DNA of 32,764 bases from Alphaproteobacteria bacterium (GTDB lineage Bacteria > Pseudomonadota > Alphaproteobacteria > JACAEB01). Each line of letters begins with the position of its first letter. The stretch's first letter is position 1. Shown in pieces: positions 1,851-26,877 of this stretch. The DNA is taken from positions 1-32,764 of the forward strand of contig JACAEB010000051.1 of assembly GCA_013389075.1 (NCBI GenBank), written 5' to 3'. The position numbers and the translations under genes are program-made. A model generated the notes under the pieces. That model searched no databases. It saw only the letters and a list, made by a program, of their open reading frames with translations, and was not told the DNA's origin.

Positions 1851-2402
1851 ATGCTGAAGGTCGACCCCGTGCTTCTCGCAACGGCCCGCGCCTCGCACCG
1901 GTTCACGCAAGGTCTCGTGCTGTGGGGTCTTGCGCTGGCCTCCGCCGGGCTCCTCGCCGGGGCGTTCGCCTTCGAGCATATCGGGGGGCTTGCGCCCTGC
2001 CCCTTGTGCCTCCTCCAGCGCTGGGCGCATGCGGCCGCGCTCGTCCTCGCGCTCATCGGGGCGGCCGGCCCCGCCCTCGGCCTCGTCGGAGCGGACTGGC
2101 GGCCCGTCTGTCTCGTCACCTGCGCCTTCGCCCTTCTGGCCGGTGTCCTCTATGCCGGCACGCATGTCGGCGTCGAGGAAGGCTGGTGGTCGGCGCCCAC
2201 GGGCTGCGCCAGCGGCGGACCGCTCGGCGGACTGACGATCGAAAGCATCGCCACCGCCTTCGAGGGGCCCCGCGTCGTGCCCTGCGACGCCAAGCCCTGG
2301 ACCCTGTTCGGGATCTCCATGGCGGGCTACAATTTCCTCCTGTCGATGGGTCTTGCGGCCATCGCCCTCCTCGGGCTCACGCGGCCCGAGGGGAAGGCCT
2401 GA
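1851..2402 (+). CDS. dsbB: Disulfide bond formation protein B (DsbB family)
   Basis: A 183-residue inner-membrane protein with four hydrophobic helices (about 20-41, 58-80, 86-106, 150-176). The first periplasmic Cys pair is CPLC at 50-53, followed by the conserved LLQRW. The second is C119 and C145, in a loop ending 'PCDAKPWTLFGISMAGYN'. This is the DsbB arrangement, in which electrons from DsbA pass through two Cys pairs to ubiquinone. Two further cysteines (87, 91) lie in the third helix. It sits between exoD and coq7, and coq7 starts 46 nt downstream. Confidence 0.9.
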   Translation: MLKVDPVLLATARASHRFTQGLVLWGLALASAGLLAGAFAFEHIGGLAPCPLCLLQRWAHAAALVLALIGAAGPALGLVGADWRPVCLVTCAFALLAGVLYAGTHVGVEEGWWSAPTGCASGGPLGGLTIESIATAFEGPRVVPCDAKPWTLFGISMAGYNFLLSMGLAAIALLGLTRPEGKA

Positions 2403-2448
2403 CGGGCCCGGGCTCCGCCGCCGCAAGCCGCTGGTGAAGGAGGCCGCA

Positions 2449-3039
2449 ATGGCACCATCCCCCGATCCCGGCCGCCCGGCCTCCCGCAAGCCCCCCGCGC
2501 GCCCGGGCGAGACCGCCCCGCGCCAGCGCCGCGCCGCCATGCTCCGGGTCGATCATGCGGGAGAGCATGGCGCCGTCCGCATCTACGAGGGCCAGCTCGC
2601 CGTGCTCGGCCAAAGCCCGGCGACGGCACGCAGCGCGGCGCTCGTGCGCAAGATGGCCGCCCAGGAAGAGGCGCATCTTGCGACCTTCGACCGGCTGCTC
2701 GGCGAGGAGCGGGTGCGCCCCACCCTCCTCGCCCCCGTCTGGCATGTGGCGGGCTTCGCGCTCGGCGCGGCGACGGCGCTGATCGGCGAGAAGGCGGCCA
2801 TGGCCTGCACCGCGGCGGTCGAAGAGGCGATCGACGATCATTACGCGGCCCAATCGGCCGAACTCGGCGCCGAGGGCGGCGCGCTCAAGGACACCATCGA
2901 TCGTTTCCGTGCGGACGAAGCGGAGCATCGGCAGACGGCGCTCGCCGAGGGCGCCGAGCGGGCCCCGGCCTATCCGCTCATGAGCGCGCTCATCCGGGCG
3001 GGGTGCCGGGCCGCCATCCGCCTCTCCGAGCGCGTCTGA
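2449..3039 (+). CDS. coq7: 5-demethoxyubiquinol-5-hydroxylase (Coq7 family)
   Basis: A 196-residue di-iron carboxylate protein that hydroxylates demethoxyubiquinol in the penultimate step of ubiquinone synthesis. Iron-ligand motifs are visible: E39 in RVDHAGEHGA, an ExxH in QEEAHL, a Glu in VEEAIDDHY, and a final ExxH in DEAEHR. The frame opens further upstream (2353), but the ATG at 2449 has AAGGAGG about 8 nt before it and avoids a large overlap with dsbB, so I chose it. The N-terminal 30 residues are Pro/Arg-rich and outside the catalytic core. Its 3' end faces the uspA-like gene with an 8-nt gap. Confidence 0.92.
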   Translation: MAPSPDPGRPASRKPPARPGETAPRQRRAAMLRVDHAGEHGAVRIYEGQLAVLGQSPATARSAALVRKMAAQEEAHLATFDRLLGEERVRPTLLAPVWHVAGFALGAATALIGEKAAMACTAAVEEAIDDHYAAQSAELGAEGGALKDTIDRFRADEAEHRQTALAEGAERAPAYPLMSALIRAGCRAAIRLSERV

Positions 3040-3047
3040 GCCCGTCG

Positions 3048-3914
3048 TCAGTGGGCGATCAGCACCGGGATGGCCGCATTGGCGAGCACGTGCCGCGTCG
3101 CGCCGCCGAGGATGAACTCGCGCAGCCGGCTGTGCCCGTAGCCGCCCATGATGACGAGATCGGCATTGCGCCGTTCGGCTTCGGCAAGCAGCCGCTCGCC
3201 CACCGGCTCGCCGGACGGCGCGAGCCAATGGCTCTCCGCCGTGACGCCGTGAAGGGCGAGATAGGCGCGCACCGAGGCAAGGCGCGGCTCGGCCTCGGCC
3301 TTCTCGCCGATGGTGAGGCAGGTGACGGCGCGTGCCCCCGCGAGCACGGGCAGCCCCGCGCTCAAGGCATTGGCCGCTTCCGCCGACCCGTCCCAGGCGA
3401 TGCAGACGCGCGTGCCGATGCTGGCGCCCGCCTCCCGGGGGGCGAGCAGGATCGGCCGTCCGGCCGCCATCAGGCATTCCTCGAGCGCATCGGTCAGCGA
3501 GGGCTCGTCGCTGCACGTCCGTCCGAACACGACGAGATCGGCGAGGCGGGCGAGCTCGGAGACCGTCGGGACGAGGGCACCGATGCAGCGCTGGAAGCGG
3601 ACGCTCGGCAACCGGTCGGCGCGCGGCTCGTCGGTGGCGGCAAGGCCCGAGGAGCTCCGCGCCGCGTCGAAGGCCTCCCGCGCGCGGGCGGCGGCGCGGT
3701 CCGAGGCCTCCTGCGCGGCCGTGAGGTAATCGTCGATGACCGCCCCGGTGACGCCCTCGCCGAGATAGGGAAGCGTGGTTCGCGGATCGGGCGCGATGTG
3801 GACCACCTCGCAATGCGCCTTGACCTGGCCGGCGAGCCGGAAGGCCGTTTCGAGCGTCGCGCGGTCACGCACGTCGCCGATGAGAGGAACCAGGATCTTC
3901 TTGAGCCCAGCCAT
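3048..3914 (-). CDS. Universal stress protein, tandem UspA domains
   Basis: A 288-residue cytoplasmic protein. The first Usp domain starts 'MAGLKKILVPLIGDVRDRATLETAFRLAG'. The second begins near residue 150 ('RVCIAWDGSAEAANALSAGLPVLAG') and ends with a near-consensus ATP-binding G-x2-G-x9-G segment, GGYGHSRLREFILGGATR, then 'PVLIAH'. The usual Ser/Thr directly after the last Gly of the motif is Gly here. The upstream frame is open to 3962, but the ATG at 3914 has AAAGGAGG a few nt away and fits the family start. Family members bind ATP or other ligands under stress; the specific role is not visible. A candidate promoter lies at 4093-4121. Confidence 0.88.
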   Translation of the reverse strand: MAGLKKILVPLIGDVRDRATLETAFRLAGQVKAHCEVVHIAPDPRTTLPYLGEGVTGAVIDDYLTAAQEASDRAAARAREAFDAARSSSGLAATDEPRADRLPSVRFQRCIGALVPTVSELARLADLVVFGRTCSDEPSLTDALEECLMAAGRPILLAPREAGASIGTRVCIAWDGSAEAANALSAGLPVLAGARAVTCLTIGEKAEAEPRLASVRAYLALHGVTAESHWLAPSGEPVGERLLAEAERRNADLVIMGGYGHSRLREFILGGATRHVLANAAIPVLIAH

Positions 3915-21052: not shown

Positions 21053-21156
21053 CGGATCCCTCGACAGCCGGAACCGGCGCGACACCCGGCCCCCTTGATT
21101 CCCTTGGAGGTGGCGCCCACAGTGCCTGTCCCGCAGAACCGATCATAGAGGCCAGA

Positions 21157-22176
21157 GTGGGTGTCGTCGTCTCCTATCCGGGCGAGCGCGAAAGCGGCGC
21201 CAACGCGCTGGAACACCTGATCGCCCTGGTCGGCGATGACATGGCCAGTGTCAACACGGTGATTCTCGAGCGCATGGCGAGCCATGTGCCGATGATTCCC
21301 GAACTTGCGGGCTATCTCGTCAACTCGGGCGGCAAGCGGCTGCGACCCATGCTCACGCTCGCCTCGGCGCGGCTGTGCGGCTATGGGGGCGAACACCATG
21401 TCCGCCTCGCCGCCGCGGTGGAGTTCATCCACACCGCCACGCTGCTGCATGACGACGTGGTCGATGAAAGCGATCTCCGGCGCGGCAAGGCCACCGCCAA
21501 CAGGCTCTGGGGCAATCAGCCGAGCGTCCTCGTGGGCGACTTCCTCTTTTCACGCTCCTTCCAGCTGATGGTGGCGACGCAGAACCTGCGCGTCCTCGAC
21601 ATCCTCTCAAATGCCGCCGCCGTGATCGCGGAAGGCGAGGTGATGCAGCTCTCGACCGCCCAGAACATGGGAACGACGGAAGACACCTATCTCAAGGTCA
21701 TCGAGGCGAAGACCGCCGCGCTCTTTGCCGCCGCCTGCCAGGTCGGCGCCGTGATCGCCGGCCGCCCGGGCGAGGAAGAGGACGCCCTCTTCTCCTACGG
21801 GCGCAATCTCGGCATCGCCTTCCAGCTCGTCGACGACGCGCTCGACTATGCGGGCGCTCGCGACGCGCTCGGCAAGAACACGGGCGATGACTTCCGCGAG
21901 GGCAAGATCACGCTGCCGGTCGTGCTCGCCTATCGGCGCGGCAGCGAGTCGGAACGCGCCTTTTGGCGCCGGGTGATGGAAGAGCGCGTGCAGCACCCGG
22001 ACGATCTCGCCCATGCCGCCGATCTGATGCGCCGGCACAGAGCGATCGACGACACGATGGAGCGCGCCCGGCACTACGGCTCCATCGCCACCGACGCGCT
22101 CGCCATCTTCCCCGACGGCGTCTGGCGGAACGCGCTCGGCAGGCTGGTCGGCTTCTGCATCTCCCGCACGCACTAG
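21157..22176 (+). CDS. ispB: Long-chain polyprenyl diphosphate synthase (IspB/DdsA-like)
   Basis: A 339-residue trans-prenyltransferase. The two aspartate-rich motifs are 'LLHDDVVDESD' and 'LVDDALDYAG'. Also present are 'NSGGKRLRPMLTL', 'GDFLFSRSFQLM', 'KTAALFAAAC' and 'GKITLPVVLA'. It would build the ubiquinone tail (C50 in most alphaproteobacteria); chain length cannot be read from sequence with certainty. The start is taken as GTG 21157, with AGAGG 5 nt upstream. The upstream open frame is antisense to the genes opposite and is not coding. Confidence 0.9.
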   Translation: MGVVVSYPGERESGANALEHLIALVGDDMASVNTVILERMASHVPMIPELAGYLVNSGGKRLRPMLTLASARLCGYGGEHHVRLAAAVEFIHTATLLHDDVVDESDLRRGKATANRLWGNQPSVLVGDFLFSRSFQLMVATQNLRVLDILSNAAAVIAEGEVMQLSTAQNMGTTEDTYLKVIEAKTAALFAAACQVGAVIAGRPGEEEDALFSYGRNLGIAFQLVDDALDYAGARDALGKNTGDDFREGKITLPVVLAYRRGSESERAFWRRVMEERVQHPDDLAHAADLMRRHRAIDDTMERARHYGSIATDALAIFPDGVWRNALGRLVGFCISRTH

Positions 22177-22263
22177 GGCCGCGCAGGGTCCGCACGGCCC
22201 CCCGCGTTATAACGGGAGCGCCGGCTCCGCGTCCGGCCGCATGCGCTGACGGGGGAAATCGCC

Positions 22264-24204
22264 ATGAACCGACACCTGCCCTTCGACCCTGCCCTCACAC
22301 GACGGACCGCCCTCCTCGCCGGCTCGGCCGCCGGCATCTTCGCCGGAAGCGGCGCGGCTTTCGGGCAGATCAGTTTCGAGGACGGCCAGCCGGGGACGCT
22401 GCCCGGTTTCGCCGAGGATGTCCTTGCCCGGATGGCCCGGTGGGAGGCACATGGCTGGAAGCGGGGGCGGGTCGGCGACATGCGCTCGCGCATCACCCTC
22501 GTCTACCGCACCGATCCGGAGAAGACACGCGCGCTTCTGCCTCCGCCCTTCGAGGTGGACCCCGAGGCGCTCGTCTACTTCAACAGCCTCAACATCCTCG
22601 TGCCCCCGGGCTATGACACCGTGCTCGCTCCGGGACCGGACTATGGCGAGGTCGACCTGTCGGTGACCTGCTACTACAAGGGCCTGCGCTACCAGACCTC
22701 CCTGCCCTGGATCCTGACCCGCGATTTCGGCCGCTATGCCGGGCGCGAAGGCGCGATGCTCCGCAAGAAGGACGGCTTCATCCATCACGATTTCGAGGAT
22801 GGCGTCGCCACCAGCTACACGGTGCGCCAGGGCCGCAAGATGCTCGTCTTCGAAGGGCGATGGCTCGACGAGCCTGCCCACCCGCGCGCCTGGTACCGCG
22901 AGCGCGGCAATGGCGAGCTGCGGGTCGACATGCGCCTGCATGCCGACTGGACGAAAGGTCCGTTCTCCGATCTTCCCGTCGAGCTGTGGCGCCATTTCGG
23001 CTCTCCGGAGGGCGAGCCGACGCAGATGCCGCCCGACACGGGCGACCATGCGCGATTTCCACGCCGCCTCGATCTGAAGAACACGCGCTTCTCCCTGGGC
23101 GATGCAAGCCCGCTCGACCCCTATATCGACCTGCCCGTGCTCGAGATGATCGACGGATCGATCGGCGACAGCTCGCAGGTGGGCGTCGCCGGCTATGCCG
23201 TCCCCCGCGAACGCGGCACGGGACAGGAGCGGCGCGGCGCCGGCGGGGGGATGCGCGAGAAGATCGCCGAACTCGACCCGGCCGAGATGGCCCCCTTCGC
23301 CTTCTGGTGCAGAGCCTATGACCCCCCGATCTTCGACAACAAGGTGAAGGTCCCCGCCGGCTGGCCCGATCGGGGATCGGCGGTCGCCGCAAGTCCCGAG
23401 GCGCTGGAAGGCTGGAAGACACGCGCGGCGATGAGGCTGTCGGACGCTGATCTTCTTCTGGTCGATTTCGCCCTCGACCCGACCGTGTACGGACGGAGTC
23501 TGCCGCCGGGGACGAACCCCGCGCGCCCGGTGCTCCGGATGATCGGGGCCAATGTCCGGGTCAGCGATTTCGCGACCGTCCCCTTCACCGAGATCTGGCT
23601 GCTCACGCCGTGCGAGCTCGACGGGTCGGAGGTGTGGTACGCGCTTTCCCATATCGTGAGCCCGGACGGCGACGTTCTTCTGGGGCGCGAAACCTGGGGC
23701 TATCCGACCAAGCAGGCGGAGATCCTGACCATCGAACCGGGCGCTGACGCCATCTCGCTCCGTTTGCGGCGGCTGCATCGGGAGGTCGCCGCGGGGCGGA
23801 TCTCGCGAACGGCGGCCAGTCCGGCATCCCTTGACGAAAGCTTCACGGTCCTTGGTATCCAGAGCCTCGGCGTCTCGGACGCCGGCACGCGCAACGCGCG
23901 CTACGTCACCCAGCCCTGGACCGTCCGTATCCGGACCGCCGAGCGCCTGCCGCCCGCCGCCATTGAGCTCGGCTTTCCGCGCGAGGCGTCTCCGAGCCGG
24001 ATCGGGCGGAAGGATCCCTGGTTCGAGTTCGATGGCGCATCGGTCACGCAATCCCTGTTCGGAAGCGGCGAGATTGCGCGCCGTCCGGGGGCCTATGCGA
24101 GCGGACCTCTCGGCGCCGAGATCCGGGCGGCGAGCGCCGAGCGCAACGACGCGCCGGGCGGGGACGATCCGCACCCGTCCACCTTCCTCATTCGTTCCGA
24201 CTGA
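22264..24204 (+). CDS. Exported protein with two acetoacetate-decarboxylase-like domains
   Basis: A 646-residue protein. The N-terminus has a twin-arginine-like signal: R13-R14 in LTRRTALLAG, a hydrophobic core, and an AFG-Q cleavage-like site near residue 34. Two halves, about 65-295 and 370-610, both resemble the acetoacetate decarboxylase fold. The motif GRE-x5-KK is intact in the first (G160-K169), and reads GRE-x5-TK in the second (G474-K483, within ETWGYPTK). In acetoacetate decarboxylase the first Lys of the pair is the Schiff-base residue. Substrate and role are unknown. It begins 87 nt after ispB. Its end overlaps the opposite ispE end by 17 nt. Confidence 0.72.
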   Translation: MNRHLPFDPALTRRTALLAGSAAGIFAGSGAAFGQISFEDGQPGTLPGFAEDVLARMARWEAHGWKRGRVGDMRSRITLVYRTDPEKTRALLPPPFEVDPEALVYFNSLNILVPPGYDTVLAPGPDYGEVDLSVTCYYKGLRYQTSLPWILTRDFGRYAGREGAMLRKKDGFIHHDFEDGVATSYTVRQGRKMLVFEGRWLDEPAHPRAWYRERGNGELRVDMRLHADWTKGPFSDLPVELWRHFGSPEGEPTQMPPDTGDHARFPRRLDLKNTRFSLGDASPLDPYIDLPVLEMIDGSIGDSSQVGVAGYAVPRERGTGQERRGAGGGMREKIAELDPAEMAPFAFWCRAYDPPIFDNKVKVPAGWPDRGSAVAASPEALEGWKTRAAMRLSDADLLLVDFALDPTVYGRSLPPGTNPARPVLRMIGANVRVSDFATVPFTEIWLLTPCELDGSEVWYALSHIVSPDGDVLLGRETWGYPTKQAEILTIEPGADAISLRLRRLHREVAAGRISRTAASPASLDESFTVLGIQSLGVSDAGTRNARYVTQPWTVRIRTAERLPPAAIELGFPREASPSRIGRKDPWFEFDGASVTQSLFGSGEIARRPGAYASGPLGAEIRAASAERNDAPGGDDPHPSTFLIRSD

Positions 24205-25078
24205 GGCGCGTCGACGCCGCCCTGATCCACCAGTCCGGATGTGCCGCGGCGAGGGCCCGGGCGGCGGCCCTGGCCTCTTCTGCCGACCCGAAGAGGCCCA
24301 AGACGGTCGGGCCCGAACCCGACAGACGCGCGAGCCGGCATCCCGGCGCCGCCGCCACGCCGGCCAGTGCCGCATCGATGGGCGGACAAAGGCGTCGCGC
24401 CGGCCCCTCGAGATCGTTGCGCGTGGCCGCGAGCCATCCGAAGAAATCCGCAAGGGGACGATCCGGCGCGGGGCCCGAATACTCCGCGGGCGACAGAGCC
24501 TCGAAAACGGCGCGCGTGGACAGCGGTACGCCGGGATTGACGAGGAGGAGGTCGAGCGCCGGCACCTCGACCGGCTCGAGACGCTCGCCGATCCCCCGCA
24601 TCCGCGCCGGCGTGCCCGCAAGACAGACCGGCACATCCGCCCCGAGCCGCCCGGCGAGGGCCGCGAGCGCGGCCACGCCCGGATCGAAGTCCCACGCCTC
24701 GCAGAGGAGAGCGATCGCCGCCGCCGCATCGGCCGAGCCGCCGCCGAGCCCCGCCGCAACGGGCAGGATCTTTTCGAGCGTGATGTGTATCGGCGCGGGC
24801 GGGGCCTCGCGCATGGCCACATGGAGGGCGGCAAGACCGCCGGCCGCCCGCGCGACGCTGTTGTCCGTGGGCGGCGTATCGGCAAGCGCCCCGGCGAAAG
24901 GTCCGGTGAGGGCGAGGGCCGTCACCTCCCGCGCAGGCGTCACGCTCAGCCGGTCACCGATATCGGCGAAGACCACGAGACTGTCGAGCTCGTGATAACC
25001 GTCCGTCCGCCTGCCGAGCACATGAAGGAACAGATTGACCTTGGCGGGCGCGAGACGGGTCCGGATGGCGGACGTCAT
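24188..25078 (-). CDS. ispE: 4-diphosphocytidyl-2-C-methyl-D-erythritol kinase
   Basis: A 296-residue GHMP kinase of the MEP isoprenoid pathway. It starts 'MTSAIRTRLAPAKVNLFLHVLGRRTDGYHELDSLVVF', carrying the catalytic K-x-N segment. The ATP-binding loop is 'PVAAGLGGGSADAAAA', and the C-terminal 'RLSGSGPTVLGLF' completes the signature. The ATG overlaps the stop of the upstream TPR gene (ATGA, 25078-25075), so I chose it over an upstream open frame. The product feeds the isoprenoid used by the nearby polyprenyl synthase. Confidence 0.94.
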   Translation of the reverse strand: MTSAIRTRLAPAKVNLFLHVLGRRTDGYHELDSLVVFADIGDRLSVTPAREVTALALTGPFAGALADTPPTDNSVARAAGGLAALHVAMREAPPAPIHITLEKILPVAAGLGGGSADAAAAIALLCEAWDFDPGVAALAALAGRLGADVPVCLAGTPARMRGIGERLEPVEVPALDLLLVNPGVPLSTRAVFEALSPAEYSGPAPDRPLADFFGWLAATRNDLEGPARRLCPPIDAALAGVAAAPGCRLARLSGSGPTVLGLFGSAEEARAAARALAAAHPDWWIRAASTRLSRNE

Positions 25079-26877
25079 TGCGTTCCGCTCGAATAGTCCG
25101 CGTGCTCGTCGCCGACGAGGTCGAGCCCGAGCTCCAGCTTGCGACGGACCCGTGCCGCCAGCTCCGGCTCGGGGTCCATGTCGAGCACGTGGCTCCACTG
25201 GAAGCGGGCCTCGAGCTTGCGCCCCACGCGCCAGAACGCGTCCCCGAGATGATCGTTGATCGTGGGATCGCCCGGAGCCAGTTCCACGGCACGCTCGAGA
25301 TAGCGCACGGCCCTGTCGTAATTGCCGAGCCGGTAATGGGCCCAGCCGAGGCTGTCGACGATGTAACCGTCATCGGGCCTCAGCTCGACGGCCCGTTCGA
25401 TCATGGCGAGGGCGCGGTCGAGATGAAGCCCCTGATCCACCCATGAGTAGCCGAGATAGTTGAGGATCAGCGGGTCCTCGGGCCGCATCTCGAGCGCCGT
25501 GAGGAGACTTTCCTCCGCCTCGGGCCAGCGCTTGAGGCGCTCGAGCACCGTGCCGCGCGCATAATGCAGCGCCCAGAAATCCCCGTCCTGAGCATCGACC
25601 CGCGAAAGCGCCGCGTCATAGGCCGAAAGCGCCTCGCCATACCGCTCGCGGGCGCGCAGGATGTCCGCGATGGCGATGGGACCGCGATAGAAATCGGGAT
25701 TGCGGGCGGTCTTCTCGCGCAGGAGCTCGACGGCCTCGTCCGTGCGGTCGAGCCGGTCGAGATTGTAGGCGATCTGTACGGAGATGGTCTCGGCGAGGGG
25801 CGAGTCCCGCTCGATGCGGCGGTAGACCTCGACCGCCCTCTCCCATTGCTGCGCGTCCTCGAACCGGTCGCCGATGAGGGCGAGGGCCACGTCGAAATCG
25901 GGCCGCAGATAGACCGCGAGGTTGAGATAGATGAGCGGCAGCTCGACGCTCGCGATCGAGGGAAACACGCTCGCGATGCCGTAGAGCGCTTCCGCCGCGC
26001 CGGCACGCGGATCGGTCACGATCGGCGCCGGCGCCCGCCCCGCCTCGAGGTCGGCAATGGCGGCGAGAATGATCGGATTGTCCGGGGCGAGCTCGAGATA
26101 GTCGGTGTAGAGCTCGAAGGCCTCGTCCTCGCGGCCCTGCCGGGCGAGGAAGCTGCCATAGGCCTCGATCATGCGGAGCGAGCGGCCCTGGCCGAACAGG
26201 ATGGCTTCCTTGTAGGCCGCGTCCGCGTCTTCGGCATTGCCCGTCAGATCCGCAAGGAGGCCGCGATGGAAGCGCTCGAAGATGCGGACCGTCTGCAGAT
26301 CGCCGAGCGAGTCGAGTTCGGCGATGGCGGCCGCCTCGTCGCCGCGCCCCAGCTCCGCCCAGGCCCCGACAAGGGCCGCGGACAGACGTCCGAACGGCCC
26401 CTGCGCATCGAGATTGAGATTGGCGAGCGTGCGGCCGTAGTCGCGGCTCCGCAGCGCGTCCAGCGCGAGCACGAGCTGGGCATACGGATTGTCGGGATCT
26501 GCCTCGAGAATGGAGGGCGCGGCACGGACCGCCGAGGGCACCGATCCTTCGGCGAGGTCGAAGAGAAACTTCCGCTCGAGGAGGACCGGGCTGTCGGGTT
26601 CGATCGAGAGAGCCAGCCCGTAATAGCGGGCCGCATTCTCCGAATCGCGCGTGGCCGCCGCATAGCGCGCGGCGAGGTAGGAGCCGAGCAGTTGCGGCTG
26701 CTCCGACAGGCCCCGGCCCCAGACATCGTCCCGACCCCCGATCCAGCCATCGGCCCAGCCCCGCGGCGCGGAGAGCTGGGCGCAGGCGGCGAGGGCTCCC
26801 AGCATCGCCAGAGCGATGCCGGCGCGCCGGACCGCCCGGCCCTTCGGGGAAGCTCTGCGGAAAACCGGCTTGATCAC
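25075..26877 (-). CDS. TPR-repeat lipoprotein
   Basis: A 600-residue protein with a lipoprotein signal: basic start, hydrophobic core (AGIALAMLGALAAC) and lipobox LAAC, with Cys about residue 33. The mature part is a long series of tetratricopeptide repeats. The clearest are at the C-terminus, for example 'LILNYLGYSWVDQGLHLDRALAMIERAVELRPDDGYIVDSLGWAHYRLGNYDRAVRYLERAVELAPGDP' (repeat units given as family marks). It is probably anchored in a membrane facing the periplasm and scaffolds protein complexes; partners are unknown. The start is GTG at 26877, with an AAAGGG about 10 nt upstream (a loose fit). It is coupled to ispE by a 4-nt overlap. Confidence 0.85.
   Translation of the reverse strand: MIKPVFRRASPKGRAVRRAGIALAMLGALAACAQLSAPRGWADGWIGGRDDVWGRGLSEQPQLLGSYLAARYAAATRDSENAARYYGLALSIEPDSPVLLERKFLFDLAEGSVPSAVRAAPSILEADPDNPYAQLVLALDALRSRDYGRTLANLNLDAQGPFGRLSAALVGAWAELGRGDEAAAIAELDSLGDLQTVRIFERFHRGLLADLTGNAEDADAAYKEAILFGQGRSLRMIEAYGSFLARQGREDEAFELYTDYLELAPDNPIILAAIADLEAGRAPAPIVTDPRAGAAEALYGIASVFPSIASVELPLIYLNLAVYLRPDFDVALALIGDRFEDAQQWERAVEVYRRIERDSPLAETISVQIAYNLDRLDRTDEAVELLREKTARNPDFYRGPIAIADILRARERYGEALSAYDAALSRVDAQDGDFWALHYARGTVLERLKRWPEAEESLLTALEMRPEDPLILNYLGYSWVDQGLHLDRALAMIERAVELRPDDGYIVDSLGWAHYRLGNYDRAVRYLERAVELAPGDPTINDHLGDAFWRVGRKLEARFQWSHVLDMDPEPELAARVRRKLELGLDLVGDEHADYSSGTQ

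Follow-up and report, generated by a model that had tools for sequence, protein, structure and literature searches.

A gene in the 32,764-nucleotide stretch of alphaproteobacterial DNA analyzed here (contig JACAEB010000051.1, hereafter the window) encodes a 646-residue protein in which two acetoacetate decarboxylase (ADC)-like domains stand behind a twin-arginine (Tat)-like signal: the first domain carries a complete lysine pair, while the second lacks the Schiff-base lysine. This architecture and its motifs are solid; export, catalysis, the type of reaction, the substrate and the role of the second domain we infer. The reading that appears most likely, and which we hold with about even confidence, is that of an enzyme acting on carbonyl compounds in the periplasm through a Schiff base, joined to a conserved partner domain that forms none. 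To our knowledge ADC-fold enzymes are single-domain cytoplasmic proteins; the fused form with its export-type signal adds a new architecture to a superfamily already known.

Two ADC-like domains in one reading frame

The reading frame begins at the first in-frame ATG (Table 1). Its GC content and GC3 (0.84) match those of neighboring genes, and composition thus gives no sign of recent horizontal arrival. A spurious frame is ruled out, since the genome also encodes a diverged paralogue built in the same way. An antisense open frame of 892 aa (22207-24885, minus strand) covers the gene and overlaps ispE; we attribute it to high GC and do not count it as a gene.

Table 1. Coordinates of the features discussed (window positions unless a locus is given)
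Feature	Position	Strand	Basis or remark
Polyprenyl synthetase, upstream neighbor, outside the system	21133..22176	+	PF00348, E 1e-78
Two-domain export-tagged ADC-like gene, 646 aa	22264..24204	+	Open frame from ATG; full-length homology to paralogue P0002
Twin-arginine-type signal, residues 1-34, R13-R14	22264..22365	+	Tat-style pattern scan; possible cleavage after AFG
Domain 1, ADC fold, complete lysine pair	22369..23262	+	PF06314, E 8e-15; AlphaFold model; PDB matches
R74 (R29 of ADC by alignment)	22483..22485	+	Also conserved in paralogue domain 1
E129 (E76 of ADC by alignment)	22648..22650	+	Residue comparison
GREGAMLRKK, residues 160-169	22741..22770	+	K168/K169 align to K115/K116 of ADC; residue comparison
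Conserved linker, about residues 334-372	23263..23379	+	41% identity to paralogue, above either domain
Domain 2, ADC domain without Schiff-base lysine	23380..24093	+	PF06314, E 6e-15; profile-profile match
GRETWGYPTK, residues 474-483	23683..23712	+	T482 at K115 position; K483 = K116
IspE-type GHMP kinase, convergent downstream neighbor, outside the system	24188..25084	-	3′ ends overlap by 17 bases
PQQ-dependent dehydrogenase	L005:3157-5250		Directly upstream of paralogue; PF01011, E 6e-174
Paralogue P0002, contig C102	L005:5254-7140		Same genome, same plan, 35% identical to window protein
Unfused ADC pair L015	728-1453 and 1477-2202		One PKK, other PQK or PMK
Unfused ADC pair L009	419-1204 and 1174-1983		One PKK, other PQK or PMK
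Unfused ADC pair L022, convergent	1471-2202 and 2337-3068		One PKK, other PQK or PMK

A preceding sequence-only reading had described the protein as a duplication of ADC-like domains with identical motif spacing, one half carrying the catalytic lysines and the other divergent, and all of this stands. Two PF06314 (ADC) domains are present, at a level well beyond chance (combined 107 bits, E 1.1e-30); taken singly, the halves score 55.4 and 55.9 bits against a cut-off of 29.8 bits; the NCBIfam model for acetoacetate decarboxylase, NF002614, gives 30.6 bits, below its cut-off of 150 bits. GRE-x5-KK (G160-K169) in the first half recurs as GRE-x5-TK (G474-K483) in the second, with K168/K169 in the one and T482 at the Schiff-base position in the other.

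For the comparison of individual residues both halves were aligned with about 77 single-domain ADC proteins from other Pseudomonadota. We take R29 and E61 to be pocket residues of ADC and K116 to be its second lysine. At ADC positions 29, 61, 76, 115 and 116, domain 1 has R, N, E, K and K, and domain 2 has A, I, E, T and K; the residues opposite R29 and E61 vary with the alignment, whereas those of the motif do not. From the set R29/E61/E76, domain 1 therefore retains R29 and E76, and domain 2 E76 only. E76 has been described as a conserved binding-pocket residue (PMC4520260), and the same source gives K115 as the lysine that forms the Schiff base, citing work in which its substitution abolished activity.

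The predicted structure of the first half adopts the ADC fold, as the earlier reading had anticipated, and K168/K169 lie within its high-confidence part. The AlphaFold model was built from 47 aligned proteins, all of them ADC relatives, an input that favors the ADC fold. Values of pLDDT exceed 90 across much of the core and around K168/K169, and are low in the N-terminal lead, in an insertion at about residues 206-265 and at the end. All 24 matches to the PDB with E below 0.001 have the ADC fold, and comprise ADC, MppR, Swit_4259 and an aldolase-dehydratase only. A full-length model, built from two sequences only, reached a pLDDT of 31 and was discarded. For domain 2, profile matches point to an ADC-like fold: the PF06314 match spans profile positions 16-207 of 238, and the domain 2 alignment matches that of domain 1 profile-to-profile, with ADC rows shared by both sides so that the two are not fully independent.

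Schiff base formation by domain 1 is likely. Three features count against the favored reading: the N at the E61 position, the LRKK setting of the lysine pair, which is absent from the other ADCs compared, and the C-terminal half of the domain, which includes a low-confidence insertion and has no Pfam match. The usual GRExWGxPxK context is better kept in the second copy, where only the Schiff-base lysine is replaced.

A fusion older than the gene duplication, with two constrained pockets

The paralogue has the same layout: a Tat-like signal, KK in the first half and SK in the second. Its residues at the five ADC positions are R, N, E, K and K in domain 1 and D, L, E, S and K in domain 2, where the motif reads GRETFGYPSK. 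Both copies thus have KK in domain 1 and T or S at the K115 position of domain 2, meaning that the nucleophile is missing from domain 2 twice.

By BLAST and in a tree, domain 1 pairs with domain 1 and domain 2 with domain 2 (support 100/100 each). Since the halves fall into two separate, fully supported pairs, the fusion predates the gene duplication; recent internal duplication is ruled out, the halves being farther from each other than from their paralogue counterparts. Conservation is concentrated around the motifs: 13 of 18 residues are identical to the paralogue in the domain 1 block (residues 154-171; 72%) and 16 of 22 in the domain 2 block (residues 462-483; 73%), as against 33-34% for the domains, and only 5 of 545 and 2 of 541 segments score equally high or higher. 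This difference (∼73% versus ∼34%) indicates that both pockets are constrained, and that the pocket without the lysine is not decaying.

Such constraint raises the possibility that both halves are catalytic, domain 2 acting through K483 (the K116 position) or by a hydroxyl mechanism, with two successive steps in one protein. In its favor, the two copies agree in K483, E443 and the hydroxyl (T/S) at 482, and few blocks of the protein are as conserved as the domain 2 motif. Nevertheless we think this improbable: the R29 equivalent is lost from domain 2, and we know of no case in which K116 of ADC acts alone. The inactivation of ADC by K115 substitution, as cited in PMC4520260, also speaks against it.

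A dehydrogenase beside the paralogue

The sequence-only reading had noted the absence of an adjacent pathway partner. This holds for the window copy, which lies among genes for a polyprenyl synthetase, IspE, a TPR protein and ETF-QO and shares 17 bases with ispE where their 3′ ends overlap. The polyprenyl synthetase gene and ispE stand end to end, with no ADC gene between them, in two other alphaproteobacteria; the ADC gene therefore appears to be inserted at a conserved housekeeping site of which it is no part, and for the same reason a link to isoprenoid synthesis through these two genes was rejected.

The paralogue, by contrast, starts 3 bp after the stop codon of a gene for a PQQ-dependent dehydrogenase, a position that suggests a partner. 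The dehydrogenase, of periplasmic type, lacks a heme c motif and begins with a signal-like sequence. The source genome (84% complete) yielded no full pqqE; the gene might have escaped assembly, or PQQ might be taken up from outside. Also near the paralogue are genes for a sulfatase, a TetR regulator, a TonB receptor and an alpha/beta hydrolase. An M42 peptidase encoded at the same locus (L005:429-1556) scores above the cut-off of TIGR03106, a model from the NAGGN osmoprotectant system.

These contexts bear on whether the protein is an enzyme at all. It could be an exported non-enzyme in which both ADC folds serve ligand binding or structure and the KK pair is a leftover, a reading that we regard as clearly less probable than an enzyme yet worth weighing. 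The window copy has no partner, domain 2 has neither the Schiff-base lysine nor the R29 equivalent, and other ADC-like families, for example DUF2071, lack K115 (PMC4520260). A leftover pair would, however, sit oddly with equivalents of KK, R29 and E76 in domain 1 of both copies despite 35% overall identity, with a domain 1 motif block that is so well conserved between them, and with an oxidoreductase gene adjoining the paralogue.

A Tat-like signal in both copies

The Tat-like signal of the earlier reading was recovered by a pattern scan: TRRTAL at residues 12-17 is followed by an uncharged stretch of 24 residues, and TatC is encoded in the source genome. The paralogue is also positive, its stretch ending with an ARA-type cleavage site. 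Among single-domain ADC reading frames, some of which represent the same gene twice, 88 of 89 were negative; the single match is spurious, with low hydrophobicity and a position within the domain itself. Judged from these patterns, Tat export of the window protein is likely.

Known ADCs are cytoplasmic and the signal here is predicted by pattern, so that an ordinary cytoplasmic ADC-like enzyme with a fortuitous Tat-like N-terminus has to be considered. We give it the lowest probability of the readings weighed: an RR followed by an uncharged hydrophobic stretch occurs in two diverged copies and is not a feature of single-domain ADCs, the paralogue has its cleavage site, and the dehydrogenase beside it is of the periplasmic type.

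Proposed function

On the reading we favor, a fusion of two ADC-fold domains would be moved to the periplasm by Tat. Domain 1 would be the catalytic half: K168, its pKa lowered by the adjoining K169, may bind a carbonyl substrate as a Schiff base and so promote decarboxylation, aldol cleavage or condensation, or dehydration. Domain 2, having lost the Schiff-base lysine (T482) and kept a constrained pocket, would be a fixed partner of domain 1, contributing to assembly or binding a ligand. The probable substrate of the paralogue is a carbonyl compound produced by the PQQ dehydrogenase encoded with it; for the window copy, related chemistry on a different substrate is probable.

This account draws on the R29, E76, K115 and K116 equivalents kept in domain 1 of both copies, on the signals in both together with TatC and the closeness of the paralogue to the dehydrogenase gene, on the domain-by-domain pairing and the conserved motif blocks, on unfused pairs of KK and QK or MK domains elsewhere (see below), and on the match of the domain 1 model to ADC-fold enzymes, among them MppR, whose active-site lysine acts on keto acids (PMC10367076). 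It is weakened by the window copy having no adjacent partner and by pqqE not being found in full. A more specific version, in which an obligate fusion of catalytic and lysine-less ADC domains works in the periplasm through a Schiff-base lysine and in series with quinoprotein dehydrogenases, is tentative and on present evidence rather unlikely.

Domain 1 has in common with acetoacetate decarboxylase (PF06314; 3bh2, 3bgt) the fold, the GRE-x5-KK spacing and the equivalents of R29, E76, K115 and K116; the window protein differs in its two fused domains, its Tat-like signal, an identity of about 17%, the N for E61, the unusual LRKK and a second copy without K115. MppR and the aldolase-dehydratase of Streptomyces bingchenggensis (4jm3, 4zbt, 6eej) share the ADC fold and a Schiff-base lysine and rank near the top of the structural matches to domain 1, but are single-domain proteins with neither fusion nor export signal, and the biosynthetic context of MppR is known. 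Swit_4259 of Sphingomonas wittichii (5upb) has an ADC-like fold and is alphaproteobacterial, as here, but consists of a single domain (256 residues in the structure).

An exported fusion of a catalytic and a lysine-less pocket would bring Schiff-base lysine chemistry to the periplasm, and would make it possible to study cleanly what a conserved twin without catalytic function contributes to an active domain. Were the coupling to the dehydrogenase also true, reactions at carbon-carbon bonds would come after alcohol oxidation, outside the cytoplasm.

Distribution and unfused pairs

No other Pseudomonadota genome in a sample of more than 700 carries the export-tagged fusion of a KK and a lysine-less domain. 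Queries with both full-length proteins detected no further copy in overlapping samples of 385 Alphaproteobacteria, 399 Pseudomonadota and 274 Gammaproteobacteria, and in family searches only the source genome had two adjacent ADC matches in one intact frame. Viral contigs and plasmids yielded no full-length relative, peptide-pattern scans of genome contigs (with patterns either strict or weak) no relative, and the open-licence literature no paper on an exported or fused ADC. Because the source organism is the sole member of its order in the collection searched, close relatives may simply be missing.

In three other alphaproteobacterial genomes, a count that covers the fetched loci only (L015, L009 and L022), two unfused ADC genes are neighbors, one encoding a KK protein and the other a QK or MK protein. 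Like the fused protein they bring a lysine-complete and a lysine-less ADC together; unlike it they are separate genes without a signal and belong to the classical ADC clade. Their lysine-less members have Q or M at K115 and G or A at E76, and do not group with domain 2 in the tree, which indicates that their loss of the lysine was independent of that in domain 2. This suggests that complete and lysine-less ADC domains have been paired independently more than once, and that such pairing may be general in the superfamily. A further tandem ADC-like pair (L007, 320-1093 and 1147-1968; genome G027, contig C6) keeps the lysine pair in both members.
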